DNA of 64,000 nucleotides from Streptomyces chumphonensis. Its GTDB lineage: Bacteria > Actinomycetota > Actinomycetes > Streptomycetales > Streptomycetaceae. The DNA is taken from assembly GCF_014779715.1 (NCBI RefSeq), contig NZ_JACXYU010000001.1, positions 806,001-870,000 of the forward strand, in the 5' to 3' direction. The translations under genes and the position numbers were made by a program. This document shows positions 15,307 through 32,857 of the stretch, piece after piece. The notes below the pieces were generated by a model. It was not told where the DNA came from. It was given only the letters and a program-made list of their open reading frames with translations, and searched no databases. The first letter of the stretch is position 1, and the number at the start of each line of letters is the position of its first letter.

Positions 15307-15352
15307 GTGGGGCGGGTGGGACTCGAACCCACGGCCGACGGATTATGAGTCC
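15307..15352. repeat. Left attachment repeat of genomic island (tRNA 3'-half copy)
   Basis: 46 bp identical to 32812-32857, covering the 3' half of the CAT tRNA gene from acceptor end to anticodon loop. Immediately after it the sequence stops matching a tRNA. This is the classical footprint of tyrosine-recombinase integration into a tRNA gene. Confidence 0.9.
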
Positions 15353-15898
15353 TTTTCGGCTGTTCCGATCCGCCCCGGCTCTTGCCCCGTCTTTCCCATA
15401 ACTGCAGGTCAGAGGAATTTTGCCGTTCTGGCTCTGTGCAGGCTTTCCTGATCCTTCCGGGTCCTTCCGTCCCCTGCGTGTCCCCTGGAGGTCCTCCGAG
15501 AGCCCTCCCGAGGGAGTCACGTGGGGGTGTCTGCACAGATCTACGCAGGTTGAGCAGCGGGACAAGTCGAGGTCTGGACCCCGCACGCAGCGGAGAGCCT
15601 TACCGGAGCAACGTTCTCACCTCTCGTACCGGAGGTAGAGCCGAAGGGCTTTTCGCAGGTCAGCCACCGCTCCCCAGCGTAACGTGCAGCACCGTTCAAG
15701 CTGCCTCCGCGCCACCGAATTCGAGCGGCAGCACATCAGGGATCGCCGTGACCGGATCTTTCCTCCCGGGCTGCTGCACGGCGAGGTCGTAGCCACCGCC
15801 CCGCGCTGCTCCGGACCCGTGCTGGTGACGCTCGGCAGGGGGACAAGGCTCCAGTTCTGGAACGGCATCTCTACCGTGCCCGATACTCTCCGGACTAC
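15353..15898. other. Island left end, no supported gene
   Basis: Several open frames exist on both strands but none has a Shine-Dalgarno or recognisable protein. A GTGTCCCCTGG motif at about 15478-15488 recurs near the island's right end and may be an integrase arm site. Confidence 0.5.
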
Positions 15899-17361
15899 AT
15901 GGAATTGGGCAGAGGCGTGGACATGGAGCAAAGGACCTGGGCCAGTGAACGTCGGCTGACGGCAATCAGTCGAGCGAGCCTGTCCGTCCCCGCGCGGCAG
16001 CCATTATCGACAGACAGGTCAGCCCCGGACGCACGGTTTTGGACTACGGCTGCGGACATGGCGGGGATGTGCGTGCCCTCCGGCAACTGGACTGCCACGT
16101 CACGGGCTGGGATCCCTTCTACCAGCCGGACACCGTGCTGCAGCCCGCTGACGTCGAACTGTTGACGTACGTCCTCAACGTCATCGAGGACCCTCAGGAA
16201 CGGCGAAAGACCCTCAAAGCGGCTTGGGACCTCGCGGGAACTGTCCTGATCGCATCGGCCCGGCTCACGTGGGAGAAGTCCAAGGTCCGCGGCGAGGCAT
16301 TCGGCGACGGGTTGCTCACTAGCCGGCAGACGTTCCAACACCTCTTCGGCGCCAGTGAACTGCGCAACTACGTCGAGGAAGTCACCGGAGTCCGCACCGT
16401 TTCGGCAACTCCCGGCATGGTGTATGCGTTCAAGGATGAGACAGCGCGACTCAGCTACCTCGCGCGGCGCATCATCCCCGACAAGGAATGGCTCGCTTCC
16501 GAGGACACGGCATCAGCTATCGCCGCCATCGTGGATCATGCCGAGCGGCGCGGTCGGCTGCCCCCCCCATGGAAGAGGTGCCCCAGCCGATGGCCGAACT
16601 CCTCGGCCAACTGCGTCCCAACGAGATCCGTCGACTCGTCCGTGACTCCGCAGACCAGGCCAAGGTCGAAGGAGGCGGCAAACAGAGCACGTTGAACACG
16701 CTGCTTTTTCTGGCCGTCGAACTCTTCAACGGCCGAGGGCCCTTCAGCAGCCTGCCCCTGAGTGTCCAACTCAACGTCCGCGCCTTCTTCACGTCGTACA
16801 AGGAAGCGTGCCAGCGCGCCGACCGCCTCCTGCTGAAGCTTCGCGACGACACATACATCGCGGGGCCATGAACGCCTCCGCGGTGGGGAAGCTGACCCCA
16901 ACCGCCCCATACGTGCACCGCCGGGCCGTCGACCGCATGCCCACCGTGCTACGCCTCTACGAGTACTGCGCATCGATCGCAGCCGGCCGCCCGTCGGAGT
17001 GGACCGTGGCCAAGCTCCGGCACCGAGGACGTACCGTGAGCTGGCTCAACTACCCCGACTTCGACAAGGACCCGCATCCCCGCATCCGCTCTTCGTACCA
17101 GGTAGACCTGCAGAGCCTTGAGACCTCCCACACCTCTTACGCAGACTCCGTGAACCGCCCATTGTTCCACCGCAAGCACGAGTTCCTCGCTCCGGACGAT
17201 CGCGACGTCGACCGGTACAAGAGACTGACCGCATCAGAGGTGCGCGCAGGCCTGTCGAATCACCGCACCTCATCGGCACAGAGAACGGCTGGGAGGCAGA
17301 ACTCATCCGCTGTGGGGGCCAGCTCCGGGGGCACCGCCTGGTGCGGCGCACGTCCTCGTGA
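15899..17361 (+). pseudogene. DNA phosphorothioation-associated putative methyltransferase, multiply frameshifted
   Basis: Pieces in successive frames match the dnd-associated methyltransferase family (TIGR04096 as I recall it): RRLTAISRASLSVPAR; then IIDRQVSPGRTVLDYGCGHG (SAM-binding motif I), VLNVIEDPQERR and RLTWEKSKVRGEAFGDGLLT; then VPQPMAELLGQLRPNEIRRL; then GKLTPTAPYVHRRAVDRMP with LNYPDFDKDPHPRIRSSYQ and LFHRKHEFL; then IGTENGWEAELIRCGGQLRG. Domain order is normal, but the frame breaks near 15991, in a C8 run at about 16560-16567, at about 16868 (where an ATGA overlap could restart translation) and near 17262-17284. It ends 3 bp from the convergent dndA stop. Either a decayed gene or an error-rich stretch. 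Confidence 0.75.
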
Positions 17362-17363
17362 GG

Positions 17364-18506
17364 TCAAGCCGTGTCCGGCTGAAGCCTCTTGATGGTCTCC
17401 ACGAGATCAGCCGGATCCAGCTCGGTCGTCTGGCTGGGGAACCACGAGAGGCGAAGCCCGTTCGAGGCTACCTCTGCCGGCAAGCCCATGGCGGTGAGTA
17501 CGTGGCTCGGCGTGTACGAGGCGCTCGTGCAGGCAGACCCCGTGGCGACTGCGACCTGGTCCTTGAGCATGACGATCAGTGCTTCAGCGTCCACCCCGTC
17601 GAAGGACAGGTTCAGGATGTGCGGGAGGGTGTGCTCCTGGTCGCCGTTCACAGTGAAGCGGGTCTTACCCAGTGCCTCCAGCAGGCGGTCACGGAACGCG
17701 GAGGCTTCCTTCAGCCACCGGGCGTGCTCCTTGTGGAAGAGCTTCGCTGCTTCCACAAGCCCCATGATCAACGGGACAGGAAGCGTGCCGGGCCGCAGCC
17801 CTCGCTCCTGACCGCCTCCGAACATGATCGGCTTCAACGGGATCGCGTCCCAACCCCGATGCCGTGCAAGGAGCATCCCGATCCCCTTGGGGGCGCCGAT
17901 CTTGTGACCGCTCACGCTGATCAGATCGATCGGGGCCGTCAGGTCCTGCGTCAACTTCCCGTAGCCCTGAGCGGCATCGACATGGAAGAAGGTCTCCGTC
18001 TCACGGATCTTGCTCGCCAGCTCAGCGACTGGCTGAACGACGCCGGTCTCGTTGTTGACGTGCATCAGAGACACCAGCAGCGTGTCCGGGCGAAGCCGCT
18101 CCATGACTGCTTCCACCGTGACCCGCCCCGACGCGCCGGGCTCGATGAAGTCAACCTCGAAGCCACGGGTCTGCAGGTGCTCCAGTGGCTCGATGACGGC
18201 CTTGTGCTCGACCGCAGAGGTGATGATGTGACGCCGCTCGGTCGCCTCACCGTGCGCCGCGAGCCCCAACAGGGCGATGTTGTTGCTCTCGGTGGCGCCA
18301 CTTGTGAAGATCAGCTCATCCGGGTCTGCGTTGAACGTGCCAGCGAGGTGCTGGCGGGACTGCTGGACAGCACGCTTCGCACGAGTCCCGTACTCGTGGG
18401 TGCGACTGCCGGCGTTGCCGAACTCCTCGGTCATCCAGTACAGGACGACCTCGGCCACTCGCGGATCCACGCGAGTCGTCGCTGCCGCATCAAGGTACGT
18501 AACCAT
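17364..18506 (-). CDS. dndA: Cysteine desulfurase DndA
   Basis: 380 residues from the ATG at 18506 (VTYLDAAATTRVDPRVAEVV), which in length and N-terminus matches the well-studied S. lividans DndA as I remember it. It is a fold-type I PLP enzyme with the PLP lysine in SGHKIGAPKG (Lys202) and the sulfur-carrying cysteine in ATGSACTSAS (Cys326). It mobilises sulfur from L-cysteine and helps build the DndC iron-sulfur cluster for DNA phosphorothioation. It is divergent from dndBCDE across a short shared promoter region with inverted repeats. A GTG at 18539 would add 11 residues but lacks a Shine-Dalgarno. Confidence 0.95.
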   Translation of the reverse strand: MVTYLDAAATTRVDPRVAEVVLYWMTEEFGNAGSRTHEYGTRAKRAVQQSRQHLAGTFNADPDELIFTSGATESNNIALLGLAAHGEATERRHIITSAVEHKAVIEPLEHLQTRGFEVDFIEPGASGRVTVEAVMERLRPDTLLVSLMHVNNETGVVQPVAELASKIRETETFFHVDAAQGYGKLTQDLTAPIDLISVSGHKIGAPKGIGMLLARHRGWDAIPLKPIMFGGGQERGLRPGTLPVPLIMGLVEAAKLFHKEHARWLKEASAFRDRLLEALGKTRFTVNGDQEHTLPHILNLSFDGVDAEALIVMLKDQVAVATGSACTSASYTPSHVLTAMGLPAEVASNGLRLSWFPSQTTELDPADLVETIKRLQPDTA

Positions 18507-18546
18507 GGGGTCCACCACACTTCTGTTCGTTAAAGCCACGCAGGCC

Positions 18547-18588
18547 GTACGTGTTCTGAATGACGTACAAGTACGATACCGTTACGTA
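18547..18588. promoter_or_regulatory. Divergent dndA/dndB promoter with GTACGT inverted repeats
   Basis: GTACGT (18547-18552) and ACGTAC (18563-18568) form a perfect inverted repeat with a 10-bp spacer; GTACG (18571) and TACGTA (18583-18588) follow, just before the dndB GTG at 18590. DndB is a known negative regulator of the S. lividans dnd operon, so this is a plausible autoregulatory operator (inference). Confidence 0.5.
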
Positions 18589-18589
18589 G

Positions 18590-19720
18590 GTGGGATCACC
18601 GTCACCTTCGCAGCTCGCTGACACCGCCACATCCTCTGGCTTCGACTACATCTTTCCAGCCATTCGAGGGGTACAGGCCGGGCGTGAGTTCTATGTATCC
18701 ATGTGTCCGCTTCGTCTCATTCCGAAGATCTTCCTCTTCGACGAAGACGAACTGGCCCCCGAAGTGCGGGCCCAACGGGTACTGAACAAGGGGAGACTCC
18801 CCGCCCTTACCCGGTACATTGTGGACAATCCGGACGACTACGTCTTCAGTGCCCTCACCGCTTCCGTCGACGGTGAGATGCACTTCCAGAGCATCGGGGA
18901 CTCCGGTGTGGGCATGCGCGCCGGTCAGCTGCGCATCCCCATGGCAGCCCGCTTCCTCATCAATGACGGGCAGCACCGCCGCGCAGCCATCGAGCAGGCC
19001 CTCAAGGAGAACCCAGATCTCGGTGAGGAGACGATCGCCGTCGTCTTCTTCTACGACGCCGGACTTGCCCGCTGCCAGCAGATGTTCGCCGACCTAAACC
19101 GCCACGCCGTCCGCCCGGCCAGGTCGATCGGAGTCCTCTACGACCACCGCGACGACCTCGCCATCATCGCGCGTCTGCTCGCGATGAAGTCCCCTGTCTT
19201 CAAGGGGCACGTCGAGATGGAGAACAGCACTCTGTCCCAGCGGTCCCGCAAGCTCTTCACCCTCAGCGCCGTCTACTACGCCACCCAGTCCCTCCTCCAA
19301 GGTCTCAAGGTCGACAAGGAGCGGGCGGAAGCACTCGCTGGCCTGTACTGGGAGGCAGTCGATACGGTCGTGCCCGAATGGGCACTGGTGCGAGGCCGTG
19401 AGATGACCGCTCCCGAAGTGCGTCGCGACTTTATCCACAGCCATGGCATCGCCCTGCACGCGCTCGGCAGAATCGGCAACACGCTGCTGAGGGAGTCACA
19501 GACGCAGAAGAGCTGGAAGTCAAAACTGAACCGTCTGAAGACGGTCGACTGGTCCCGAAGCAACACCGACTGGGAGGGCCGGGCTCTCGTCGGTGGCCGC
19601 GTATCGAAGAGTCATCAGAACCTGGCCCTTACGGTCAACTACCTTCGGCGGCATATGGTCTTGCAGCTCAGTCCAGAAGAACAGCGTGTAGAAGAAGCAT
19701 ACGTGCGAGGAGATTCATGA
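18590..19720 (+). CDS. dndB: DndB, DGQHR-domain regulator of DNA phosphorothioation
   Basis: 376 residues containing the diagnostic LINDGQHRRAAIEQA, then FADLNRHAVRPARSIGVLYD. DndB is not needed for sulfur incorporation itself; it affects modification specificity and represses dnd transcription in characterised systems. The GTG start lies only a few bases beyond the palindromic operator region, so the message may be leaderless or nearly so. Its stop overlaps the dndC ATG (ATGA), showing translational coupling. A second, larger DGQHR protein is encoded elsewhere in the island. Confidence 0.93.
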   Translation: MGSPSPSQLADTATSSGFDYIFPAIRGVQAGREFYVSMCPLRLIPKIFLFDEDELAPEVRAQRVLNKGRLPALTRYIVDNPDDYVFSALTASVDGEMHFQSIGDSGVGMRAGQLRIPMAARFLINDGQHRRAAIEQALKENPDLGEETIAVVFFYDAGLARCQQMFADLNRHAVRPARSIGVLYDHRDDLAIIARLLAMKSPVFKGHVEMENSTLSQRSRKLFTLSAVYYATQSLLQGLKVDKERAEALAGLYWEAVDTVVPEWALVRGREMTAPEVRRDFIHSHGIALHALGRIGNTLLRESQTQKSWKSKLNRLKTVDWSRSNTDWEGRALVGGRVSKSHQNLALTVNYLRRHMVLQLSPEEQRVEEAYVRGDS

Positions 19721-21237
19721 GCACCGCCACACGGACTGTCCCCTTCCAGGGACGCGGTCTCTCCGAAGTCGTGAGCGAGCTGACCGAGGAGGTTCGCGAG
19801 CTCTATAGCGCGGACGAGGTGCCCTGGGTAATCGGCTACAGCGGAGGCAAGGACTCAACTGCCGTCCTTCAGCTCGTCTGGCTCGCCTTGAAGGAACTTC
19901 CCGCCGCGCAGCGCACCAAGCCTGTGCATGTCATCAGCACTGACACACTCGTCGAAAACCCCATCGTCGCCTCCTGGGTCTCCCAATCCCTCGACACGAT
20001 GAAGAAGGCAGCGACCGAACAGGATCTGCCTATCGAGCCCCACCGCCTCACCCCGAAGGTCGAAGACACCTTCTGGGTGAACCTCATCGGCCGCGGATAT
20101 CCGGCGCCCCGGCCGAAGTTCCGGTGGTGCACCGAGCGCATGAAGATCAAGCCGTCGAACCGCTTCATCCGCTCGGTGGTACGCCGGCACGGCGAAGCGA
20201 TCCTTGTGCTGGGAATCCGTAAGGCGGAGAGCCAGGCCCGTGCCCGTGCCATGGCCAAGCACGAAAAGGGACGTGTACGCGACCGCCTCTCACCCAACGG
20301 CAATCTACCCAACTCGCTTGTGTACAGCCCTATCGAGGACTGGACCAACGACGAGGTCTGGGCGTTCCTCATGCAGCAGGCCAACCCCTGGGGATACAAC
20401 AACAAGGACCTGCTCACGATGTACCAGGGTGCCTCCAGCGACTCGGAGTGCCCCCTCGTCGTCGACGACACCACACCCTCCTGTGGTGACAGCCGGTTCG
20501 GCTGCTGGACCTGCACTCTCGTGGACCAGGACAAGTCCATGACCGCCATGATCCAGAACGACCCCGAGCAGAAGCGATGGATGCTCCCACTGCTCGCCCT
20601 GCGCAACGAGCTCGATGACGTCTCCAGCGAGAAGGAGACACGCGACTTCCGGCGCATGAACGGGCGAGTGCAGCTTTTCAACGACCGCATCATCCAGGGC
20701 CCGTATACGCAGAAGGCGCGCGCGGACTGGCTGCGCAAGCTCCTTGAGGCCCAGGCATACGTACGGAAGAACGGCCCTCAAGAAGCCCGCACGATCGAAC
20801 TCATCACCATGGAAGAGCTGCACGAGATCCGCCGACTCTGGGTCTTCAAGAAGCACGAAGTGGAAGACATCCTGCCGCAAATCTACGAGGAAGCGACCGG
20901 CGAGAAGTTCCCCGGCCAAGACCTCGAAGAGCAACTCGTCGTCCGCGCTAGCGAGATCGAGCTCCTCAAGAAGGTCTGCGGCGACGACGAAATCCACTTC
21001 ACAATGGTCCGCGAGCTCTTGGCTGTCGAACGGGAATACCGCACTAAGACCCGCCGTAAAGGGCTCTACGAAGCCATCGAGAAAGTCATCGAGAAGGGCT
21101 TCTACGAGGATGAGCAGGACGCACTGGAGTTCGCAAAACTGAAGCAAGAGGTGCAGAGTTCCGGAGCCCGCGCCGAGAAAGCCCCACAGGTGGAATCCCG
21201 CACGTTCGACGAAGAGAAGACCAATGCTTCTGCATAA
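19717..21237 (+). CDS. dndC: DndC, PAPS-reductase-like ATP pyrophosphatase / Fe-S sulfurtransferase
   Basis: 506 residues. The N-terminal PP-loop YSGGKDST (about 41-48) binds and hydrolyses ATP. Cysteines for a 4Fe-4S cluster are visible at about 138 (RWCTERMK), 245 (SECPLV), 256, 263 and 266 (SCGDSRFGCWTC). In the Dnd pathway it receives sulfur from DndA and activates or transfers it into the DNA backbone. It overlaps dndB by 4 bp and dndD by 14 bp, so the operon is tightly coupled. All expected motifs are present, so modification should be functional. Confidence 0.95.
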   Translation: MSTATRTVPFQGRGLSEVVSELTEEVRELYSADEVPWVIGYSGGKDSTAVLQLVWLALKELPAAQRTKPVHVISTDTLVENPIVASWVSQSLDTMKKAATEQDLPIEPHRLTPKVEDTFWVNLIGRGYPAPRPKFRWCTERMKIKPSNRFIRSVVRRHGEAILVLGIRKAESQARARAMAKHEKGRVRDRLSPNGNLPNSLVYSPIEDWTNDEVWAFLMQQANPWGYNNKDLLTMYQGASSDSECPLVVDDTTPSCGDSRFGCWTCTLVDQDKSMTAMIQNDPEQKRWMLPLLALRNELDDVSSEKETRDFRRMNGRVQLFNDRIIQGPYTQKARADWLRKLLEAQAYVRKNGPQEARTIELITMEELHEIRRLWVFKKHEVEDILPQIYEEATGEKFPGQDLEEQLVVRASEIELLKKVCGDDEIHFTMVRELLAVEREYRTKTRRKGLYEAIEKVIEKGFYEDEQDALEFAKLKQEVQSSGARAEKAPQVESRTFDEEKTNASA

Positions 21238-23218
21238 GATCACCCTGCACGACTTCGGGGCGTATCAAGGGGAACAGCGCCTCGACCTCAGCACAAAACC
21301 CGGACGTCCCATCGTCCTTATCGGAGGGTTGAACGGCTGCGGCAAGACCACCCTGCTCGACGCCATCCAGCTCGTCCTCTACGGACCCAAAGCTGAATGC
21401 AGCGGTCGCGGTAGCCGCCCGTACAACGAGTACCTCCAGCAGTGTATCAACAGGAACGCCGACCCTAAGGCTGGCGCCTCCATCACATTGGAGTTCTCCA
21501 TCGTGGTAGAGGGCGTGGAGCAGCACTACCGAGTTGTACGGAACTGGCTCTTCACGGGAGAGAAGACGCTCCGTGAATTCCTTACAGTCTTGGTAAACGG
21601 AAAGTTCAGTCGCACGGTCACCGAGACTTGGGCAGACCACGTCGAATCCATCCTTCCCCTTGACGTCGCCGCCCTATTCTTTTTCGACGGAGAGAAGATC
21701 GAGGAACTCGCTGACCCGCGAAGTGCGGCACGAGTCATCGAGTCCGCGATTCACTCCCTGCTCGGTGTCAGCGCGGTCAAGAGCCTCGGGCAGATCCTGA
21801 AAACGTTCGAGAACCGACAGCAGCTCTCCGGAGCGCATCAAGATGTCCTCGACAAGATCCGGGAACAGGAAGACGAATACAGCCACGCCAAGCAGGTGGC
21901 CGAGGACGCTAACCAGATGGCGTCCGCTGCGAGGTCGGATCTGGATCGATGTAAAAAGGAACTCCAAGACAGTGAGCGCAAGTTTGAGCGTGCAGGCGGC
22001 GTCGAGTACGAGCGTCGCAAGGAGCTTGAAGCGGCGCGGAATGCTCTCAAGAGCCAGGCTCAGACCACGAACAAGGCGCTCGTGTCACTGTCAGAAGGCG
22101 CTCTTCCCCTCCTTCTGCTCCAGGAGCAGCTCGAAGAAGTGAAACGCCAGGCAGAGCTGGAACGCGAGGCAGACGACGCCTCACGTGTCCTCGGCGTGCT
22201 GGAACAGCGGGACAAGTGGCTGCTGCAACAGATCACCAAGGAGCTGCCTGCCGAGGCGCGCACGGCTCTACGGAAGAAGTTGGCCGCCGACCGCAAGAAG
22301 CGCGCTGGTGTCGTCGATCTGCCGCAGAACCTCGGACTCCCGCACGATGCGTTGACGCAACTGATCACCCTGGAACAAGTTCTGGCCGGTGACACGAACC
22401 GAGCAAACGAACTACTCAAGGATGCAAGCAAGCTCGCTGAAGACCTTGAGATCGCCCAGCGTCGCGTCGACGCGGTACCCGACGACGAGGTCATCGGCAC
22501 TCTCGTGATGGAGCGGCAGGCTGCCCTCGAGAAGGTGGCCGTGGCCGAAGCACAGGTCAAACGAGCAGAGGCCATACATGCCGAGGCCACAGCCCGGCAC
22601 GTACGACTCAAAGAAGATCTGGACCGGTCCCACAAGTCCCGCCGAGAAGCCGAGTGGCGGTCGGAATGGCTCAAGCGGGTCATCCACTACTCGGACAAGA
22701 CCCGCAGCACACTGACCAAACTCAGCGACGAGATGCTTGATCACCACATCGAGGTCGTTGAAGCAGCAGTTCTTAAGAGCTTCAACACCCTCATGCGCAA
22801 GCAGGGCCTTATCCGAGACATCTCGATCGACACCAGCAAGTACACGCTCGTCCTGACCGGCCCGGACAACGAGCCGGTCGACCCCCGCCGACTCAGCGCC
22901 GGCGAGCGGCAGCTCCTCGCAGTGTCGCTTCTGTGGGGCCTGGCGAAGGCAGCGGGGAACCGACTGCCTACGATCATCGACACCCCCCTCGGACGCCTGG
23001 ACAGCCAGCACCGGAAGCACCTCGTGGACCGGTACTTCCCAGAGGCCGGTCGGCAGGTACTCCTGCTCTCCACAGATGAGGAGATCGACGAACAGCTCCT
23101 CAAGCGGCTCAAGCCCAACATTGCCCATACCTACACCCTCGTGCATGACGACAAGACCCTCGCCACCAGCGTTGAGTCCGGCTACTGGTGGACTTCAGGA
23201 GCAGCGTATGTCGCTTGA
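21224..23218 (+). CDS. dndD: DndD, SMC/RecN-like ATPase of DNA phosphorothioation
   Basis: 664 residues with a split ABC-type ATPase: Walker A GGLNGCGKTTLLDAIQ near the N-terminus, a long coiled-coil middle (about 210-520, rich in Glu/Arg/Ala), then the signature RRLSAGERQLLAVSLLWGL and Walker B TIIDTPLGRLD near the C-terminus. DndD is thought to provide nicking or energy-dependent structural change in DNA during sulfur incorporation. It starts inside the end of dndC and ends 11 bp inside dndE. Confidence 0.95.
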   Translation: MLLHKITLHDFGAYQGEQRLDLSTKPGRPIVLIGGLNGCGKTTLLDAIQLVLYGPKAECSGRGSRPYNEYLQQCINRNADPKAGASITLEFSIVVEGVEQHYRVVRNWLFTGEKTLREFLTVLVNGKFSRTVTETWADHVESILPLDVAALFFFDGEKIEELADPRSAARVIESAIHSLLGVSAVKSLGQILKTFENRQQLSGAHQDVLDKIREQEDEYSHAKQVAEDANQMASAARSDLDRCKKELQDSERKFERAGGVEYERRKELEAARNALKSQAQTTNKALVSLSEGALPLLLLQEQLEEVKRQAELEREADDASRVLGVLEQRDKWLLQQITKELPAEARTALRKKLAADRKKRAGVVDLPQNLGLPHDALTQLITLEQVLAGDTNRANELLKDASKLAEDLEIAQRRVDAVPDDEVIGTLVMERQAALEKVAVAEAQVKRAEAIHAEATARHVRLKEDLDRSHKSRREAEWRSEWLKRVIHYSDKTRSTLTKLSDEMLDHHIEVVEAAVLKSFNTLMRKQGLIRDISIDTSKYTLVLTGPDNEPVDPRRLSAGERQLLAVSLLWGLAKAAGNRLPTIIDTPLGRLDSQHRKHLVDRYFPEAGRQVLLLSTDEEIDEQLLKRLKPNIAHTYTLVHDDKTLATSVESGYWWTSGAAYVA

Positions 23219-23585
23219 GACAGTCCGCCTCTCGCAGACCGCCAAGGACCAACTCGTATGGCTCAAGCGGCATACCGGCATCAGCCACTGGAACGTCCTG
23301 TGTCGGTGGGCGCTGGCATTGTCCCTCCGTGATCCGTCGACCCCGCTCGTACGGGACATTGTCACCGACTCCAACGTCGAGATGAGCTGGAAGACCTTCG
23401 CGGGAGCCCATGGAGACATCTACCTGGCGCTCCTGAAGCAGCGATGCCTCACAGATGGCGAAGAGGCAACCGACGAAGCCGTGTCCCGAACCCTCCTGGT
23501 ACACATCCACCGCGGAGTCGGATACCTGCACGGCCGCCGAGATCTGAAGAGCATCAGCAACTTCGTGCAGCTCTCGGTCGCCTGA
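23208..23585 (+). CDS. dndE: DndE
   Basis: 125 residues, essentially the size of other DndE proteins, starting MSLETVRLSQTAKDQLVWLK with GISHWNVLCRWALALSL. DndE forms a small oligomer reported to bind nicked double-stranded DNA and completes the DndACDE modification complex. It overlaps dndD by 11 bp and is followed by a strong bidirectional hairpin, so the dndBCDE operon ends here. There is no dndF, dndG or dndH after it. Confidence 0.92.
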   Translation: MSLETVRLSQTAKDQLVWLKRHTGISHWNVLCRWALALSLRDPSTPLVRDIVTDSNVEMSWKTFAGAHGDIYLALLKQRCLTDGEEATDEAVSRTLLVHIHRGVGYLHGRRDLKSISNFVQLSVA

Positions 23586-23599
23586 CGACCCGTCGGGCA

Positions 23600-23642
23600 G
23601 AAGGCGGCCGGCTGGGACACTCGATCCCAGCCGGCCGCCTTC
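23600..23642. terminator. Bidirectional terminator between dndE and the GHKL ATPase gene
   Basis: An 18-bp perfect GC-rich stem with a 7-base loop sits between convergent genes, 15 bp after the dndE stop and 22 bp from the other stop. Confidence 0.85.
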
Positions 23643-23663
23643 GTCATCCGGCGCAGTCTCCCG

Positions 23664-25397
23664 TCAGAGAACGTCCTTGATCTTCGTCAGGTACTGCTCC
23701 GTGAAGCTGCCCCACCACTTGCGCAGCTCCTTGTACTGATCCACCGGAGTCTCGTGCATGGACTCCGCCTTCGCGTACGCTACCAGGAGAAGCGTAATGG
23801 CTTCGATAGCGCGGCGTGCGGTCACCGATGCGTCCGGGCCTGTGCCCGAGCTGCCTCCGTTCTTGGACAGCAACTGCAGAGGCTCGTACATCTCCTGGTA
23901 GAAGACATGACGCTCATTGAGCCGGATGATCGTCTGCTCCTTGAGGTGCGTCAGCTGGAAGAGATCGTCTCCGGGGATGTCGACCGTCTCGATGACGAAC
24001 GGGAGATCCTTGATCTCCTTCACGTAAGCGGCCTTCTCCTCCTCCGTCGTGTTCCGGCCAGCATCCTTTGCAAGGTTCTCGTACTCCCGCTCCTGCTGCT
24101 TTGGAGTGGGAACCTGCTTGACCCGACCCTTCGGCATCGTGCGATCCGCTTCCTTGAGCGCCTTCGTGATGGGAGCGTGCTCACCCGCCTTCACGGCGTC
24201 ATCGCGGTTTACCTCGCCCCAGATGCGGTCGATCTCCTCACGAGCGTTGGGGATGACGCTCTCGGCGATGGTGCGAAGCGTCGCCCGCAGCTCATCTGCC
24301 GGAACCGCGCCGCGCTTGACGTTGCGGACGCCCATCATGCGGTCCAGTTCGGGGGTGAAGTAGACCTCGAAGCCGATGTAGCGGTCCTTGGTCTGGACTC
24401 CGCCCGGAAACAAGCGGGGCACGAGGGTGTAGTTAATCTCGCGATCGAGGCGCATGAAGCTGATGGCGCCTTCGTTCTCCGGGATACGGAGCTTTCTGGC
24501 GAAGGCGTCGCCGCCAGCACCCTTGAAGCGCAAGACCTGTGGCGGCGCCAGGGTGATGACCACGCGGATCTTGTGGTTTGTGTTCTGCACCTTGACCTCC
24601 TTGTTGAAGAAGGTCTGGCCGGGGAAGTGCTGGCCGCCCGCCCGGGAACGACCGCTGGTGCGAGCGAGTTCTTCAGTGACGACCTGGTCAGCCCACGTGC
24701 CCTTGCGGAGGAACGTTGGGTCGTGAGGCTTCAGATCCGTGAGGTCGACGGTGATGCGGATGCCGCTGCTCAGGAACTCCCGGAAGATGCGGGACAATTC
24801 CTTGTTCATCTCGACGCGGACGTGGTCCGGCGCACTACGCCCGTCTCCATCAGAGACACGGTCGATCTTCGACCACATCACCAGCGTGCCCGAGCCTTCG
24901 GGGAAGTAGATCTCCAGGTGGGCCGGGATCGGCTCGTCATCCGGGGGACGGATACCGACCTTCTCGCCGCGCTTCTCAGCTTCGATACCCTCTTCGAGGT
25001 CGAAGAAGACGTGCCGAATCCGGTCACTCCCGTCGACGCGGGACCACGCATCGATGCGCATGCCAACGCTGAGACCGGCGAGCTTCGCGCCGACACCGAA
25101 CTTACCGATGGTCTTCTCAGACATGAACCTCTGCGAGAACCCGAGCTGCAGGTAATGCTGGAGGGTCTCGTCGTCCATCCCCTCGCCGTCGTCGATAAAC
25201 GAGACCTGGGTAATGGACCTCTTGTTCTTCTTCATCGCCTCCTCGGTGATGATCTGGATGTGGTTCGCGCGGGCCTCGATGCTGTTGTCGATCACCTCGC
25301 CAACCGCCGAGGGGAAGTTGTGGCCGGACTCGCGGAGGCTCAGGAGGGCCTGGCCGGAGAGGACGATGGGGACGATGTTCGTGTCATCAGTGCTCAT
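23664..25397 (-). CDS. GHKL-family (Hsp90/MutL/MORC-like) ATPase
   Basis: 577 residues. The Bergerat ATP-binding fold is clear: N-box GEVIDNSIEARA (about 33-44), G1 FIDDGEGMDD (about 68-76) and G2 GKFGVGAKLAG (about 98-108). The central region resembles a GHKL transducer domain, and the C-terminal third (about 420-577) is charged and helical. MORC/MutL-like GHKL ATPases are known next to restriction-modification genes in bacteria. Here it is the last gene of a three-gene coupled operon (4-bp ATGA overlap with the GIY-YIG gene) and convergent with dndBCDE, the position where dndFGH often sits. A role in sensing or restricting unmodified DNA is inference. Confidence 0.85.
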   Translation of the reverse strand: MSTDDTNIVPIVLSGQALLSLRESGHNFPSAVGEVIDNSIEARANHIQIITEEAMKKNKRSITQVSFIDDGEGMDDETLQHYLQLGFSQRFMSEKTIGKFGVGAKLAGLSVGMRIDAWSRVDGSDRIRHVFFDLEEGIEAEKRGEKVGIRPPDDEPIPAHLEIYFPEGSGTLVMWSKIDRVSDGDGRSAPDHVRVEMNKELSRIFREFLSSGIRITVDLTDLKPHDPTFLRKGTWADQVVTEELARTSGRSRAGGQHFPGQTFFNKEVKVQNTNHKIRVVITLAPPQVLRFKGAGGDAFARKLRIPENEGAISFMRLDREINYTLVPRLFPGGVQTKDRYIGFEVYFTPELDRMMGVRNVKRGAVPADELRATLRTIAESVIPNAREEIDRIWGEVNRDDAVKAGEHAPITKALKEADRTMPKGRVKQVPTPKQQEREYENLAKDAGRNTTEEEKAAYVKEIKDLPFVIETVDIPGDDLFQLTHLKEQTIIRLNERHVFYQEMYEPLQLLSKNGGSSGTGPDASVTARRAIEAITLLLVAYAKAESMHETPVDQYKELRKWWGSFTEQYLTKIKDVL

Positions 25398-25846
25398 GGC
25401 GTGCTCCTAGAAATCGAGGGGACGGGGTTCGGGAACGTCCTGTCGAGTGCCCTCGCAGTGGCGCCGTTAGGACAGAAGGGGCAGCGCCGACCTGTGCCAG
25501 CCGGGCTTGCCGGGTGGATTCGGTTCATGACGGGGAAGCCCTCAGACCTGTACTGGTGGTACCAGGGCGATTCGACGGCGAAGGCTTGTTCGGGATTGCA
25601 GGTGGGGGCCACCAGGAAGCGACTCGCGAGTCCGCGCAGTGGATGACGGATCAGCCGACGGCGCAGGCAGGTATCAGAGCGTCCGTCGTAAACGGGGAGG
25701 GCATCGTTGGGGTAGTACCGCAGCAGCACGTAGGCACCGGCCGTGCCCGTCGGGATCTGCATGGTCACGACGCTCCGGGTGAACCGCAGAGCGGACCTGG
25801 CGGCCCCCCTGTACGGTTCAGCGACCCGGACGGGGTGTGACGCCAT
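25394..25846 (-). CDS. Small GIY-YIG-like nuclease domain protein
   Basis: About 150 residues from ATG 25846. The core reads GAYVLLRYYPNDALPVYDGR (a GIY...YIG-like pair with YDG), followed by an arginine-containing SDTCLRRRLIRH, a glutamate in AFAVESPWYHQY and an asparagine in MNRIHPA, the positions expected of the GIY-YIG catalytic Tyr/Arg/Glu/Asn set. A Cys pair follows (RRCPFCP). The YIG motif is altered to YDG, so activity should be tested. Its start shares one base with the upstream stop and its stop overlaps the GHKL start. Confidence 0.6.
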   Translation of the reverse strand: MASHPVRVAEPYRGAARSALRFTRSVVTMQIPTGTAGAYVLLRYYPNDALPVYDGRSDTCLRRRLIRHPLRGLASRFLVAPTCNPEQAFAVESPWYHQYRSEGFPVMNRIHPASPAGTGRRCPFCPNGATARALDRTFPNPVPSISRSTP

Positions 25847-26382
25847 CACGCGGCGAAGCAGATGAGCGTGCGGGCGTGGTTGCGTACGGCGCGCCGGGCA
25901 CGTTCGACCGTGGCTACCGAGACACCCGTGTGCTGTGCCGATTCCGGGACGGTCATCATGTCGAGCATCCCCTGAAGACAACCGACACCGTGCGGACCGA
26001 GAGTGGACGCGAAGGCGGCGAGCTCCCGAACGGTCTCAGTAACGAGGGCACGGGCCTCCGGGGTGTCGTACGTGACCATCTCCGCGGCCGGTGCCCCGTC
26101 GAAGGACACTGCCAGAACACGTCGGCGTGATGCGTCGGCCAGTGGACGACGCGCGGCGTTCTCACGTGAGGTGGCCTGGGACCGCCGAATCGTGCGGCGT
26201 GCGTCCCGGATGACATTCCGGCAGAGCTGGTCGGGGTTCTCTACCACACGCTCCTCACCGAGCGTCAGGCTCAGCGCCGTGTCAAGGACGTCGAGGTACT
26301 CGCTGTCCCAGGGCCGTGCTTTGTTCATGTCGTGCAGGCGGCGCATCGTCTCGAAGCGCACGTCGTCGAGCTGGAGCATCAA
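25846..26382 (-). CDS. Sigma-factor-like / HTH regulatory protein heading the GHKL operon
   Basis: 178 residues. The C-terminal VPESAQHTGVSVATVERARR and RAVRNHARTL look like a sigma region 4-type helix-turn-helix, and LCRNVIRDARRTIRRSQ may be a weak region 2 equivalent. No anti-sigma gene is adjacent. It may be an ECF-like activator of the operon or a DNA-targeting subunit; the sequence cannot distinguish these. Its stop and the GIY-YIG start overlap (TGATG). Confidence 0.5.
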   Translation of the reverse strand: MMLQLDDVRFETMRRLHDMNKARPWDSEYLDVLDTALSLTLGEERVVENPDQLCRNVIRDARRTIRRSQATSRENAARRPLADASRRRVLAVSFDGAPAAEMVTYDTPEARALVTETVRELAAFASTLGPHGVGCLQGMLDMMTVPESAQHTGVSVATVERARRAVRNHARTLICFAA

Positions 26383-26785
26383 AGCTCCTCTCCGGGTGCC
26401 CGGCTGCTATAGCCGGACCCACTCAGTTGTTACCCGCTCTCCCTTTGGCCGTCGTCGCCGTCTGGTCGACTCCGGCATGAGCAGGTGCTGCCACTGTAGA
26501 GCGGCCCTCCGACAGTGCGGTGGGGATCGCTCACATGTCATAGGGGACAGGGCAACGCCGAACCCCCTCACACCGCAGGTCAGAGCAACTCGGCTCATCT
26601 GCTGAGACTTGACGTACCGTCCACCCGGCCGATCGAGCTCTCATCGGCTGGGGAACCTCGCTTCGAGAGCACAACCGCTGGATGGCTCATCTGAGCCCGT
26701 CGGCGGCCCGATGCGGCATATGCTGATCCGGATCTGTGTCCTGGGACGGACAGGCGCACACCAAGGGACGAAGACGGGGACAGAG
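26383..26785. other. Divergent promoter region between two island operons
   Basis: Separates the sigma-like/GIY-YIG/GHKL operon from the GIY-YIG/DGQHR pair. No clear consensus promoter was identified. In-frame ATGs at 26711 and 26720 could extend the plus-strand GIY-YIG gene leftward. Confidence 0.45.
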
Positions 26786-27547
26786 TTGGGTGTCATAGAG
26801 GATGCCGACGCAGGCGCTGATGACCGGGCGGCCCTCCGGTTCGGCATGCTCGACGTAGAACAGGCGCCGGAATCACCAGGGATCTATGCCTGGTACGTGA
26901 AGTTCCATGCGAGCGTTCAGGACTGGGAGACCAACCCAGTCGACGGTCGAGACGCCTCGATCGAGGGATTCCTTGGCCTTCTTCGGGAGTACGCAAGCTT
27001 CTATGAACCGCTGCCGATAGCCCTGCGTGGCTCGGCCCCGTATGGAGGGCGCTGGGATGGAACCCTGGAATTGGACCACGGCGTCAACCATAAGCAGTCG
27101 CAGCCTTCTGAAAGTGGTGCCGAACGTCGAGAGAATGATCGACGTGAGCGGGACAGGGAAGCCCTGGAGAACACCATCAGCTCGCAGACAGGGCGCCGCG
27201 CACTGGCTCAACTCCTCGGTCGTGCGACACCCGTATTCTCGTCCCCGCTCTACATCGGAGTGGCTGAAAACCTGAATGAGCGTCTTCAGAAGCATCGGTC
27301 AAACTACAGCAGGGCTATGGAATGGCTTCGCAAGAGCCCGAATGACATGGAGAGATTGCGAGGCGACGCCAAGAATTTTGGCCAGCGCGCAGCCTCTCGC
27401 GGGATCCCTATGGAAAATCTTGAGGCGTGGATCATCGACTTGAAGGGGTTGGAATCTAGCACCTCCGTCAATTCATTGCGTGAGAGCGCGCAATCAGCCG
27501 AGTGGCTGCTCCATCGTCTGTTCGCGCCGGTCTTGGGAAGGCAGTAA
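26786..27547 (+). CDS. GIY-YIG nuclease-domain protein
   Basis: About 253 residues from a TTG with GGGGAC upstream; an internal ATG at 26846 (MLDVEQAP) or ATGs at 26711/26720 are alternatives. The GIY motif (APESPGIYAWYVKFH) and YIG motif (SPLYIGVAENLNERLQKH, including the catalytic Arg) are separated by an unusually long insertion of roughly 115 residues. A late SAQSAEWLLHRLFAP supplies the metal-binding Glu. It should be a nuclease. The DGQHR gene starts 3 bp after its stop, so the two form a unit. Confidence 0.8.
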   Translation: MGVIEDADAGADDRAALRFGMLDVEQAPESPGIYAWYVKFHASVQDWETNPVDGRDASIEGFLGLLREYASFYEPLPIALRGSAPYGGRWDGTLELDHGVNHKQSQPSESGAERRENDRRERDREALENTISSQTGRRALAQLLGRATPVFSSPLYIGVAENLNERLQKHRSNYSRAMEWLRKSPNDMERLRGDAKNFGQRAASRGIPMENLEAWIIDLKGLESSTSVNSLRESAQSAEWLLHRLFAPVLGRQ

Positions 27548-27549
27548 CT

Positions 27550-29811
27550 GTGTTGTTTCGTACTACGGGAAAAAGCACGTTTCGCGACTACGTGCAGGGA
27601 ACTTGGGGGACCTTCACCACTCCTGCCGGGCGCGTTGACTACATTATGACGAAGGCGCGCCTGGGTGAGGAGTCGCCTGCCCCGGAGCGGCTGCTGACCC
27701 AGCACCTTTCGCCGGTCCGGGAAGTCATGGACGCAGAGATGCTGGACTTCAACCAGCTCCTGCAGCGTGACCTTGATGACCACCGTGTAGCGACAGGATT
27801 GATCCCGTATCTTCTTCAGAACCGCGCGACGGGGCCGGCGTTTTTCCCTCCGATCATGGCAGTCCTTCTGCCCTTCAGAGATGGCTCTCCCTCACACTTT
27901 CCCAATCTTGGGGGTGCCGAGGAGGTCGACGACAACGACCTGACGTGGGAGCAGGTTCAGGCTGGCGATGCCTTCGCGGTTCGCCGGGTGGTGGATCAGG
28001 ATGGGAAATACCACCCAGTGAATCTCGCTCAGCTACGGTGGAATGAACATGCATCCCGGCTCGTTGTCCTCGATGGACAACACAGGGCCATGGCATTGCT
28101 TGCCATCGATCGCACCATGTCGCACAAGTGGCGTGGGAGTAAGGGCGAGAAATTCCGAGACTTCTATGAGAAGCAGGTGCAGCGCCACCTCTCCGAGGGA
28201 GGCGTTTCATCGCAGCTCGACCTTTCCAACGTAGAGGTTCCCGTCACAGTCTGCTGGTTTCCAGACCGCGTGGGTGAGTCCGGGCATGCGCATGAGGCAG
28301 CTCGGACGCTGTTCGTCGATGTCAACAAAGAAGCCAAGGAGCCCAGCGAGTCACGCATCATCCTCCTTTCGGACGCTGAACTCGTCAACGTCCTCACGCG
28401 GAGCATGCTGAGCGAACTGCGTGGGGCGGATAACAGTGACCTGCTTCCCCTCTATGCGGTCGAGTATGATAATCCTGAGATCAATACCACGCGCCCTGCA
28501 CGTTGGTCCGTCCTCACTAATATCCACCTGCTCAAGGAGGCAGCGAACCGCTGTGTCTTCGGCCACCCTAAATACCTGACGGATGTCACTAAGAAAATCA
28601 GTGGGCGCGAGAAGGAACCCGAGCGAGACGCTTTCATGCGAAAGCAGCTCGAAGTTGCGGAACTGTTCCCTGCAGAGATTCAGGATGAGGGGTTCACTTA
28701 CCGGCGTGACGCCATGGGGAACACGTATTTCCCGGTCGGCCAGTCGACAGTCCTGAGCGATCGATTCTCCGAGACTTGGGGACGAGCGATCCTCACTCTC
28801 CTGTCAAAGGTGGCCCCGTACGCCGCACACTCGCGCGCGCTGCGGCGCATGCAGGAGGGGTGGAATGGCGTCGAAATCTTTGCCTCGCTCGCTCGTGACG
28901 CCCTGTTCGGCGGGGTTGGTGTGTATTGGACGCTGAAGGATAGCTACGACCACTACACAGATAAGGCCAGGGAAGCGCATGGGGCGCTCAAGCGCAAGCC
29001 CGACGACGACGTGTTGCGCGCATGGGAAGTCATAGAGGAGAAGCAGAGCGAGTTCGAGGTATTTCGGTCAGACGAGTATCTCGGCTCAACGGCCGCCGAA
29101 AAACGTGAGGCCAGCAAGGCGTCGTACGCCGTTCTCAATACCCATGCTTGTCAACTCGGCATGGTGATGACCATGGCATCTCTCTGGGAGATGCGGAAGG
29201 CGGAAGTCGGGAACTGGAGCCTCGATGAACTTCCAGCTTTCGCTGAAGCTCTCACGCGTGGCTGGAATGCATTTTTCCTGCATGAGACCGGAAAGGGGAA
29301 AGCGAAGGATCGACGCTTGGCGTTTGGTAAGGGGGTCACGAACCCGATCAACCTGATCTCCAAGCTCGAAACTGCGCGGGCCGTCTACTTCCGATACTTC
29401 TGGCTCGAGGTGCTTGCTACCCCCGACTCCTGGCAACATGTCGCTGAATGGCTCAACGGGCGCAACGCGTTCGATCGAATGCTCTCCGACGCTCGTCGAA
29501 TGTACCGAAGCTTTTGTGTCGAAGAGCGGATCAAGGCGCTCAGGACCGGACGCCCCGGTCAGACGGAAGAGCAGCGACGTAAGGCGGCAGTGGAACTAGC
29601 CACGAAGGAACTTCGCAAGGCCTTGGTCACATGGTTCTTTGTGACTGATGCGGAGTTTGAGGCATGGATTTCTTCGGAATCTTCGGCAACACCTCTTGAG
29701 CTTCCGGTTGCCATCGGCGAATCCGTTGAAACCGACGAGGAGGACGAGGCTGAGGAGTCCGACTCGCATCCGGACAGCTACGAGGATCTCCTCAACGACG
29801 AAGACGAGTAG
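27550..29811 (+). CDS. Large DGQHR-domain protein (second, DndB-related)
   Basis: 753 residues from GTG 27550 (GGGAAGG upstream). RLVVLDGQHRAMALLAI (DGQHR about 175-179) and LFVDVNKEAKEPSESRIILL parallel the DndB motifs, but the protein is twice as long and its C-terminal 450 residues are unlike DndB. The C-terminus is strongly acidic. DGQHR proteins are found with DNA-modification systems. Being coupled to a GIY-YIG nuclease on a dnd island, it may regulate or direct that nuclease with reference to phosphorothioate sites (inference). Confidence 0.8.
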   Translation: MLFRTTGKSTFRDYVQGTWGTFTTPAGRVDYIMTKARLGEESPAPERLLTQHLSPVREVMDAEMLDFNQLLQRDLDDHRVATGLIPYLLQNRATGPAFFPPIMAVLLPFRDGSPSHFPNLGGAEEVDDNDLTWEQVQAGDAFAVRRVVDQDGKYHPVNLAQLRWNEHASRLVVLDGQHRAMALLAIDRTMSHKWRGSKGEKFRDFYEKQVQRHLSEGGVSSQLDLSNVEVPVTVCWFPDRVGESGHAHEAARTLFVDVNKEAKEPSESRIILLSDAELVNVLTRSMLSELRGADNSDLLPLYAVEYDNPEINTTRPARWSVLTNIHLLKEAANRCVFGHPKYLTDVTKKISGREKEPERDAFMRKQLEVAELFPAEIQDEGFTYRRDAMGNTYFPVGQSTVLSDRFSETWGRAILTLLSKVAPYAAHSRALRRMQEGWNGVEIFASLARDALFGGVGVYWTLKDSYDHYTDKAREAHGALKRKPDDDVLRAWEVIEEKQSEFEVFRSDEYLGSTAAEKREASKASYAVLNTHACQLGMVMTMASLWEMRKAEVGNWSLDELPAFAEALTRGWNAFFLHETGKGKAKDRRLAFGKGVTNPINLISKLETARAVYFRYFWLEVLATPDSWQHVAEWLNGRNAFDRMLSDARRMYRSFCVEERIKALRTGRPGQTEEQRRKAAVELATKELRKALVTWFFVTDAEFEAWISSESSATPLELPVAIGESVETDEEDEAEESDSHPDSYEDLLNDEDE

Positions 29812-30097
29812 GTGCGTGATTTCACGTCGCGTGCGTGGTCGCTCTGCAGTGGGTTTCACCAGCCGTGTCACCGTTCCGCTCGTGACCGGGAGAACCCGAG
29901 CGGGGCGCGTGAGGTAGTCCACTTCGCGCGCCCCCTGCGACGCTGACAAGCCGCGCTCCGTCCTATGATCATCGGAAGGAGCTGCATGGGTTCATCCACG
30001 CGACTTGGAGAAGCTCGGTGGGCGTCGGTGTCTCGGTTGCCCCACCAGGCGCCTGAGCTTTTCAGGCCTGGGACTGCTGCATAATCGGGTGACAGCG
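29812..30097. other. Intergenic, no supported gene
   Basis: Gap between the DGQHR gene and the IS3 remnant; no ORF with supporting signals. Confidence 0.5.
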
Positions 30098-31272
30098 GGG
30101 TTCATGCAGCCAGGGCTGCGGGTGGGGTCATGATGGTCTCGTACTCGACGGGGGGCAATTGGCTCAGGCGTTTCTGACGTCGGTGTCGGTGGTAGGCCCG
30201 CTCGATCCAGGTGAAAATCGCGATCCGCAACTCCTGCCGGGTAGCCCAGACTTGGCGGTCGAGGACATTCTTCTGCAGCAGCGCGAAGAAACTCTCCATC
30301 GCGGCGTTGTCGCCGACGGCCCCGACCCGGCGCCCATCGAGCCGACCAAGTGTGCCGGGTGAGTACGGCGGCGACCGTTCCGGGACCGGAATTGCGATCC
30401 TCGGTCGGAATGCACGATGCAGCCCTCAGCCCCCTGCGACGGGCGACGGCGGACTCCAGCGCGGCCACTGCGAGGCGGGACTTCATCCGGGCGTCGATGG
30501 AGTAGCCCACGATGCGGTCGGAGTGCAAGTCCTTGACCGCGCACAGATACAGCTTGCCCTCGCCGGTCGCGTGCTCGGTGATGTCCGTGAGCCACAGCCG
30601 GTTCGGCCGGTCGGCGGTGAAGTTGCGGCGCACCCGGTCGTCGTGGATCGGCGGTCCGGCCTTGGCGTTCTTGCCGCGGCCCCGTCGCTTGCCGGAGGCG
30701 CTCCACCAGCGGTTGTCCCGGCAGATCCGCCAGGCGGTCCGCTCAGCCATCGACTCGCCAGCGGCGCGCGTCTCGTCGCGCAGGAACCGGTGGCCGAACT
30801 TCGGGGTCGTCGCGATGCGTGTCAAGCAGGGCATCGGCCCGTTATGCCTAAGACAGTTTGGCATTGATGACCGGTCGGGCAAGGGTGGCGGGCCAGATTG
30901 AGCACCCGGCACGTCACCGCCACCGGGACCCTGTGAGGGGCAGCTGCGGCGGCCAGCTCGCGGACGAGCGGGTACATCATTCTGCCGCCAAATTCGCCTG
31001 CGACAGATACGCCGCAGCCCTCCTGAGCACCTAGTTCTCCTGCTCCCGCAACCGGATCCGTTTGCGGCCTCGCGCAGCTCGGCGGACTCACCCGACGGCG
31101 TCACGGGCCCGGCGCCCTCATCGGTCTCGGCGCGGCGCAGTCACTTCGAGAGCGTGATCGGGTGGACCCCGAAGTCGGCAGCGATCTGCTCCAGCGTGAC
31201 GTCGGGATCGCGGTTGCGCGCGACCCACACGCCGTTTTCGCGGAACTCCTTCGGATACGGCTTGGACACTGC
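30098..31272 (-). mobile_element. Degenerate IS3-family insertion sequence
   Basis: OrfA starts at a GTG at 31268 (VSKPYPKEFRENGVWVARNR, DPDVTLEQIAADFGVHPITL) and hits a stop at 31141. OrfB fragments in shifting frames include an rve integrase core ([20 protein letters not shown] with the first catalytic Asp, and [20 protein letters not shown]) and a C-terminal piece ([20 protein letters not shown], stop at 30102). Several frameshifts make it inactive. Terminal inverted repeats were not located with confidence. Confidence 0.85.
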
Positions 31273-31335
31273 GACATCCCTCCAGGCCGCCTCTCGGCAA
31301 GCCAGGTCAGGTGTCACCCGATCATGCAGCAGTCC

Positions 31336-32245
31336 CTGAAGCCCGATCTTTCGTTGGCGAGGCATACAACCCGTCGGCCGACATCCACCAGATCTGCGGC
31401 AAGCCAGCCACGATCACGGCGAGCGTGCGGTGAATCCGGACACCACTAGCCTCGATCTTGCATGACGGTCCGCGGAGGGAGTCGGTGGACCGTTTTGGTT
31501 TTGGAGGCTGATGGCGGGCATGCTGGCGGCCCCGCTTCGCGAGCCAGGACACGAAGCCGTGGGTGCCGCCGGCGGAGTCCGAGCGGATCAGCGTCTGTCG
31601 TCCTCGTCGGTAGCGCTTGGGCAATTGGGCCAGGGCGAGCTGGGCGGCAGTGTTTGAGCCCGCGTTTCCCGGTCTGAGGAGGGCGGCGACGGGCTCGCCG
31701 GTTCCGCCGGTCCGTGGTCGACGAAGGCCGTCAGTGGGTGATGGCCGTAGGTCTTCTTCCAGGTCGCGGCCGCGTCCTGCTTGTCGGAGTGGGCGATCCC
31801 GAGGACGCCGTCGAGGTCGACGGTGACCTGACCGTGGATGTCCGGGGCGTTCTCACCGGCCAGCGACCAGGCACGATGACGGACTTCGGAGCGTGCGGCC
31901 CGGACGGCCTGCAGGGCCTTCTCGCCGGAGGCGGCGAGGGTGTCGATCAGGCGGGAGACGGTCGGGGCGGAGGCGACCGGGCCGAAGACGGCCGGCTCGG
32001 CCCGCAGTACGGCGACGTCCGCGAGGCAGTCCCCGCCCAGTGCGACCGCCAGGGCGACGCCCAGGAGGATCTTGCCGGGATCGTGGACGGGCCCGCCGCT
32101 TCCGCCACGGAGCCAAAGCTGCGGATATCGCCTGGTCGAGGCCCGTCTTGCGGACCGTCTCCAGCAACAGGACCGCACCGGCCTGCGAGACCACCTGCCG
32201 ACCGTCTCCCTGGAAACGGACACGTGGGTACGACGAGATAGGCTC
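31336..32245 (-). mobile_element. Truncated IS1380-family transposase remnant
   Basis: Minus-strand fragments read QVVSQAGAVLLLETVRKTGL, then DPGKILLGVALAVALGGDCL and ASAPTVSRLIDTLAASGEKA with HGQVTVDLDGVLGIAHSDKQ, then LPKRYRRGRQTLIRSDSAGG with THGFVSWLAKRGR in another frame. Order and content fit a DDE group 1 (IS1380) transposase; the frames are broken and the C-terminal half is missing, so it is non-functional. Confidence 0.85.
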
Positions 32246-32811
32246 TCTCACCCGGAAAGCGCTCTTCTCCTTGCAGCCAACAGGACCCTCAGCAAGTCCT
32301 ATCGTTGCAGGTCAAGGGCACTTTCCGTGTTTCTGATCAACTCTTGGACAGCCCGCCTCGTGAAAGCGCGAGGTTGGCGCCCCGACCCCGGACCCCGTTC
32401 TACGACTGCGGGTCGCTGCCAGGCTCCATCGCACCGGTCAATTGCCACGAGCTACCGCGCTGGGGGGCCGCCCCAGGCGGGCCGCGCCTCAGCTCGAGAA
32501 GGCATCCCAAGCCGCCCTCGTCGACCGTGTACGGGCGGGTGTGGCGGAAGCCCGGGCCCCTCCCGCCATCGACTCGAACGGTAGTTTCAAGAACCTCGTG
32601 TCCCCTAAGTGTCCCCTGGGCACGCCCCCAGCACACCTCACCGCACCAACAGCCACAGCATCCCCGCAGGTCACAGCCCCAGGAACCACTCACGCCCCAC
32701 TCGTTCACCGAAGTAACATCAACGGGGCGGAATCCGTTGGGCGAGACTTCGACCCACAGGCCCCCGAAAACACATTTACTCAGGTCAGAACGGATCTCTG
32801 GCCTGCGCTTG
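32246..32811. other. Island right end, no supported gene
   Basis: No integrase or other protein is recognisable on either strand. Two copies of GTGTCCCCT (32598-32606 and 32609-32617) match a motif near the left end and may be recombinase arm sites. Confidence 0.5.
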
Positions 32812-32857
32812 GTGGGGCGGGTGGGACTCGAACCCACGGCCGACGGATTATGAGTCC
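32812..32857. repeat. Right attachment repeat of the genomic island
   Basis: 46 bp identical to 15307-15352, lying in the 3' half of the intact CAT tRNA gene. It marks the island/chromosome junction. Confidence 0.9.

Follow-up and report, generated by a model that had tools for sequence, protein, structure and literature searches.

Which genes supply the restriction arm of a phosphorothioate system whose locus carries a complete set of modification genes and lacks dndFGH? The question is raised by a 64,000-nt stretch of Streptomyces chumphonensis DNA (assembly GCF_014779715.1, contig NZ_JACXYU010000001.1, positions 806,001-870,000), hereafter the window, with all coordinates given as window positions and the S. 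chumphonensis genome referred to as the host. The window contains a phosphorothioation (PT, also used here for the phosphorothioate mark) island with dndABCDE and, beside these genes, two operons encoding a GHKL ATPase, two GIY-YIG proteins and a large DGQHR protein. The original prediction for this DNA had proposed that the two operons form an alternative restriction arm. We find a statistical link of both modules with the genes for PT modification, and their predicted domains make them strong candidates for the part of the system that destroys unmarked phage DNA. The explanation we favor, to which we assign a moderate probability, sees in the island a mobile Dnd PT locus in which two PT-satellite modules of predicted function make up an alternative restriction arm.

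The modification genes were described earlier as complete, with intact motifs and coupling, and the profile searches bear this out. All five products score above the NCBIfam equivalog cut-offs, the diagnostic motifs are preserved, and the consecutive dndBCDE genes overlap:

17364-18539, minus strand: dndA, cysteine desulfurase (TIGR03235, 541 bits against a cut-off of 480)
18590-19720, plus strand: dndB, DGQHR-type regulator (TIGR03233, 539 bits against 328)
19717-21237, plus strand: dndC, sulfurtransferase of the PAPS-reductase type (TIGR03183, 702 bits against 290)
21224-23218, plus strand: dndD, ABC-type ATPase (TIGR03185, 649 bits against 246)
23208-23585, plus strand: dndE (TIGR03184, 129 bits against 72)

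These scores and motifs establish the locus as a complete DndABCDE PT modification system as judged from sequence, and its dndC is the only one in the host genome. Downstream of dndE the two divergent operons lie as originally described, with sigma/HTH-like, GIY-YIG and GHKL genes on the minus strand and GIY-YIG and DGQHR genes on the plus strand. The reading frames of 195 and 312 aa first given for the GIY-YIG proteins were over-long, with conserved starts lying inside them, and are shortened here:

23664-25397, minus strand: GHKL ATPase of the MORC/paraMORC kind, 577 aa (HATPase_c_3, 4e-20)
25394-25762, minus strand: GIY-YIG protein 1, 122 aa, with a C-terminal CxxC (motifs, Pfam matches of homologues, fold)
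25846-26382, minus strand: sigma/HTH-like protein (weak sigma-factor and HTH matches)
26846-27547, plus strand: GIY-YIG protein 2, 233 aa (invariant motifs, Pfam matches of homologues)
about 27550-29811, plus strand, frame open from 27502: large DGQHR protein (TIGR03187 and PF14072 matches below cut-off)

To establish how closely these operons follow PT genes, we searched the same 392 genomes of the host's order for dndC, the DGQHR protein and the GHKL protein. The background frequency of dndC above cut-off was 21/392. Full-length DGQHR homologues occurred in 7 genomes, all dndC-positive and all with the gene within about 7 kb of dndC, and full-length GHKL homologues in 10, again all dndC-positive, with the two genes within about 8 kb of each other in nine and 0.93 Mb apart in the tenth (G108). 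The probabilities of such co-occurrence with dndC by chance are 4e-10 for DGQHR and 2e-14 for GHKL, figures that ignore shared ancestry. This comparison had been called for by the original prediction, under which operons equally common without dnd would mark the linkage as incidental; in this set, full-length homologues were confined to dndC-positive genomes. A wider scan with one genome per species, covering 85k species, identified 78 DGQHR loci, 65 of which carry dnd (33) or ssp (32) genes, and the proportion was 48 of 51 among loci flanked on each side by 8 kb of DNA or more. In the simpler arrangement, a gene of the GIY-YIG 2 family precedes the DGQHR gene, from actinobacteria to cyanobacteria and alphaproteobacteria. 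Many loci of Streptomyces, Actinomadura and related genera have dndE, GIY-YIG 1, GHKL and DGQHR in that order on one strand. Three genes come after DGQHR in the Ssp clusters of cyanobacteria, encoding an SF2 helicase, a distant GHKL and a PLD-type protein.

The linkage of the modules to PT genes is not incidental. The competing view, that independent defence systems simply landed beside dnd in a defence island, is strongly disfavoured and in our judgement very improbable, as the co-occurrence with short distances to dndC in the 392 genomes argues against it, and so does the finding of the DGQHR pair with either of two PT machineries. What can be said for it is that the island is apparently mobile and that the GHKL operon is found without dnd. 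A draw of 380 genomes across the host's class yielded two more with GHKL, one beside dnd (G714) and the other in G628 (locus L160), a complete genome without dndC, where HTH, GIY-YIG and GHKL genes adjoin genes for an SRA-domain protein and a GapS1-like protein. Likewise, a Nocardiopsis flavescens plasmid has a sigma-like/GIY-YIG/GHKL operon and no dndC on that plasmid.

If the modules belong with PT, it is necessary to consider whether a known restriction arm already occupies their position. The reported lack of dndFGH is true of the island and, genome-wide, neither DndF (TIGR03238) nor DndH (TIGR03237) was found in the host, DndG not having been searched at that scale; the DndH search included a positive control, which matched at 1282 bits. 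A dndFGH arm elsewhere in the host was rejected on the searches for DndF and DndH. The genes are indeed missing, but this is less striking than first presented: since DndH is absent from all 21 dndC-positive genomes of the order, its lack in the host is ordinary. The known alternative in the host's relatives is PbeABCD (CxC), with PbeA scoring >600 bits in 13/392 genomes, all 13 of them dndC-positive. Neither PbeA nor a second DndD-type ATPase (PbeC) was found in the host genome, and a Pbe arm elsewhere was rejected. Two further candidates were rejected. A DUF262 gene located elsewhere in the host genome (C3:24886) matches no PADLOC model of SspE or DndI, and SspFGH was set apart by its description as Walker-A plus FtsK-like proteins (PMC8092258), which are unlike those of the window.

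The distribution of GHKL relative to Pbe suggests what the minus-strand module may replace. Of 20 genomes that have the whole dnd set, 7 (including the host) have GHKL only, 10 PbeA only, 3 both and none neither (Fisher p 0.003), and among the 37 best DGQHR loci the corresponding counts are 13, 11, 4 and 9, with 5 of the 9 "neither" loci showing no dnd gene, most on short stretches. Strict mutual exclusion is ruled out by the 3/20 genomes and 4/17 GHKL-positive DGQHR loci that have both. The clearest swap is G270, which has GHKL and sits within a group of PbeA genomes. GHKL thus largely complements PbeA in dnd genomes, as a tendency and not as proof, because the dnd tree holds only about four changes per trait and the paired sign test is non-significant and cannot reach significance.

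The same genomic data bear on a different role for the nucleases, in which indiscriminate GIY-YIG nucleases serve as backup suicide effectors, fired when a phage inhibits the main PT system, with GHKL and DGQHR as their triggers or brakes. For stand-alone nucleases that flank Dnd loci, among them GIY-YIG (URI), such a role was proposed by Rakesh et al. (PMC10853773), and the modules of the window do lie at the locus edge, one of them on the opposite strand. However, no other restriction arm to back up was found in the host (no DndF, DndH or PbeA), and many relatives carry GIY-YIG 1, GHKL and DGQHR after dndE on the same strand. We regard this role as unlikely and return to the proposed restriction arm, whose components can be assessed individually.

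The GHKL protein is, by its predicted features, a MORC-like ATPase with an intact ATP site. Its profile finds MORC4, MORC2, MORC3, topoisomerase VI-B and PMS1 as best relatives among solved structures (best E 4e-9), and the ATP-binding residues are invariant in 19 homologues. Its gene is joined to that of GIY-YIG 1 by an ATGA overlap. An SF2 helicase, which accompanies ~70% of prokaryotic MORCs, was not found in the GHKL operon of the window. The sigma/HTH-like gene is conserved beside the GHKL genes of the window's clade, and its product probably regulates the operon.

That the locus encodes two nuclease-fold proteins was part of the original prediction, and the GIY-YIG motifs are kept in both. 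In GIY-YIG 1, the GxY, YxG, R, E and N positions and the C-terminal CxxC are invariant in 22 homologues, 16 of which match Pfam GIY-YIG (PF01541; best 2e-6), with the window copy scoring poorly when searched by itself. The structure model (pLDDT 81) matches the UvrC GIY-YIG domain at Z 8.2, and also I-TevI and PD-T4-3, the latter at Z 6.1. In GIY-YIG 2, GxY, YxG, R and E are invariant and YIG nearly invariant in 33 homologues; 19 of these match PF01541 at weak E-values (best 6e-4), and the window copy by itself again scores poorly. One row from an annotated plasmid record was dropped whole from each of the two alignments used for structure models.

The large DGQHR protein had been identified as a second DGQHR protein and a DndB relative, and this identification is upheld. 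The DGQHR motif is invariant in 56 homologues, and a profile comparison aligns the protein with DndB across the DGQHR region (E 5e-5); the first half is DndB-like and the second, in the structure model, mostly helical. The model (pLDDT 84.6) has SspE as its top structural match; the matched part is residues 44-279 and the Z, 5.5, is weak. The second half gave no convincing PDB match in a search with the full protein, that half not having been searched alone. No match was obtained by profile to DUF262 (GmrSD N-terminal) or to TIGR04172. Kinship to DndB, a known regulator of PT level (PMC4507180), is also what would be expected if the modules tuned PT without restriction, with the DGQHR protein as another regulator of the DndB type and GIY-YIG proteins that aid modification or repair. 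Such a homeostatic function would suit the presence of the GIY-YIG 2/DGQHR pair with both Dnd and Ssp, but the island already has a dndB, and the GHKL-versus-PbeA pattern, which bears on the GHKL module only, fits restriction better than modification. We consider it doubtful.

Returning to restriction, the modules may represent a PT-reading class in which GIY-YIG nucleases are driven by separate ATPases, comprising a "split SspE" (DGQHR protein plus GIY-YIG) common to Dnd and Ssp systems and a MORC-like GHKL/GIY-YIG pair that would replace PbeABCD in actinobacterial Dnd; we give this class an even chance of being real. SspE and DndI provide a precedent for DGQHR-type NTPases able to sense PT and control a nickase (PMC11662687); on the simplest view, the DGQHR protein would likewise sense PT on behalf of a separate GIY-YIG nuclease. 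It would read PT status through its DndB/SspE-like NTPase half and control its own GIY-YIG nuclease in the manner of SspE/DndI, with a separate GIY-YIG protein instead of a fused HNH domain. For the paraMORC ATPases of restriction systems, a role in looping DNA and in linking recognition with cleavage has been proposed (PMC2292703), and a fusion of GHKL and nuclease gives phage protection (PMC12137116). By analogy, the MORC-like GHKL may clamp or loop DNA upon ATP binding and bring GIY-YIG 1, the second nuclease, to nick PT-free DNA, so that in the island the pair would stand in for the PbeABCD arm, with expression of its operon probably under control of the sigma/HTH-like protein. Self DNA would be spared if PT stops or resets the ATPases.

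Domain content, recurrence with both Dnd and Ssp and near-complementarity with Pbe all argue for the proposed alternative arm. The idea of one obligatory system does not survive, as the modules are separable and either occurs with dnd without the other. This separability weighs against the favored interpretation, as do the dndC-free GHKL operons of G628 and the N. flavescens plasmid and the few trait changes on the dnd tree. On the same side are two properties of the proteins themselves: GIY-YIG 1 of the window has YDG where its homologues have YIG or YVG, and the Z of 5.5 between the DGQHR protein and SspE falls within the range of chance similarity.

The locus has features in common with several described systems and differs from them in others. 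It shares with DndABCDE plus DndFGH or PbeABCD a complete DndABCDE and, where the restriction arm would be, a linked module of several genes, with the difference that GHKL, GIY-YIG and DGQHR proteins take the place of the arms missing from the host. SspE/DndI, a DGQHR-type NTPase fused to an HNH nickase, shares the DGQHR motif and the linkage to PT genes, and SspE also supplies the best, if weak, structural match to the first half of the DGQHR protein; unlike it, the window protein has no DUF262 match and no HNH domain was seen in it, and the nuclease is a separate GIY-YIG protein. The MORC/paraMORC proteins of restriction systems (Iyer et al. 2008, PMC2292703) are similar in having a GHKL ATPase, with MORC proteins as the best solved relatives, and an adjoining nuclease gene, whereas the window operon has neither helicase nor DNA methylase, has a GIY-YIG partner and goes with PT instead of base methylation. 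URI/GIY-YIG nucleases near dnd are reported in general terms by Rakesh et al. 2024 (PMC10853773), whose main text is silent on GHKL or DGQHR partners. TIGR04172, a DGQHR PT satellite (ProPhylo 2011, PMC3226654), is likewise found only beside PT genes, but the window DGQHR protein does not match it and is about twice as long. Finally, PD-T4-3 (CMoRE, PMC12923530), the structural match to GIY-YIG 1 noted above, is a GIY-YIG nuclease whose action depends on how the DNA is modified, though as a single protein that cuts 5hmC DNA, whereas in the window sensing would fall to a separate ATPase. No description of either module was found in the open-access literature searched (GHKL with DndB or PT; DGQHR with PT), most subscription papers being outside its scope.

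Two features of the surroundings were overlooked in the original prediction, namely a frameshifted methyltransferase remnant and the tRNA-Met repeats that enclose the island:

15307-32857, no strand assigned: dnd island, 17.5 kb, between two exact 46-bp repeats
15878-17349, plus strand: remnant of a PT-associated methyltransferase gene (TIGR04096 type; tblastn pieces in different frames)

The repeat, direct and exact, consists of the 3' half of tRNA-Met; its copies, at 15307-15352 and 32812-32857, are likely integration sites. Because this exact repeat bounds the segment, the island looks like a mobile element of the tRNA-integrating type. Its GC content is ~59-65%, compared with ~75% on the right flank. 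The methyltransferase gene, which lies upstream of dndA, is disrupted by frameshifts, its family being assigned from an intact homologue; in most sister loci the homologous gene adjoins dndA. On the right side of the island, transposase-like reading frames, judged by eye to be apparently of the IS3 type, occupy 29992-31449.

The GHKL tree places these genes in a broader setting. The window's clade has the sigma-like gene alongside, a second is accompanied by GIY-YIG 1 and frequently by DGQHR too, and a third, distant clade includes the GHKLs found with a helicase and a PLD protein in Ssp clusters. This trio of SF2 (DEAD) helicase, distant GHKL and PLD protein lies beside sspABCD in 7 of 7 examined loci of the order (L138-L144), once with DGQHR, and in the cyanobacterial loci L001, L002, L056 and L081; it is a candidate second restriction arm, for Ssp. 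On three Vibrionaceae plasmids (L006, L158, L159), a GHKL gene (29-32% identity) and a DndC-like gene scoring below the dndC cut-off lie a few kb apart, with no dndD or dndE found near them. Orphan dndC-type genes with 64% identity to the window DndC occur at L134 (G130) and L135 (a Streptomyces plasmid), with no other dnd genes in the 20-kb stretches around them.

In one survey, sspFGH and sspE were each found with only about 7% of 2,678 sspBCD modules (PMC8092258). Many PT loci are without an assigned restriction component, and none of the dnd genomes examined in the order has DndH. Concrete candidates are now available in the DGQHR module, which follows PT genes in Dnd and Ssp systems alike, and the GHKL module, which is often located where relatives have Pbe. 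If the proposed function is correct, restriction in some of the numerous PT systems without DndFGH, SspE and SspFGH could come from these modules. MORC-type ATPases are known from eukaryotic silencing, and the same reading would link ATPases of this type to a mark on the DNA backbone.

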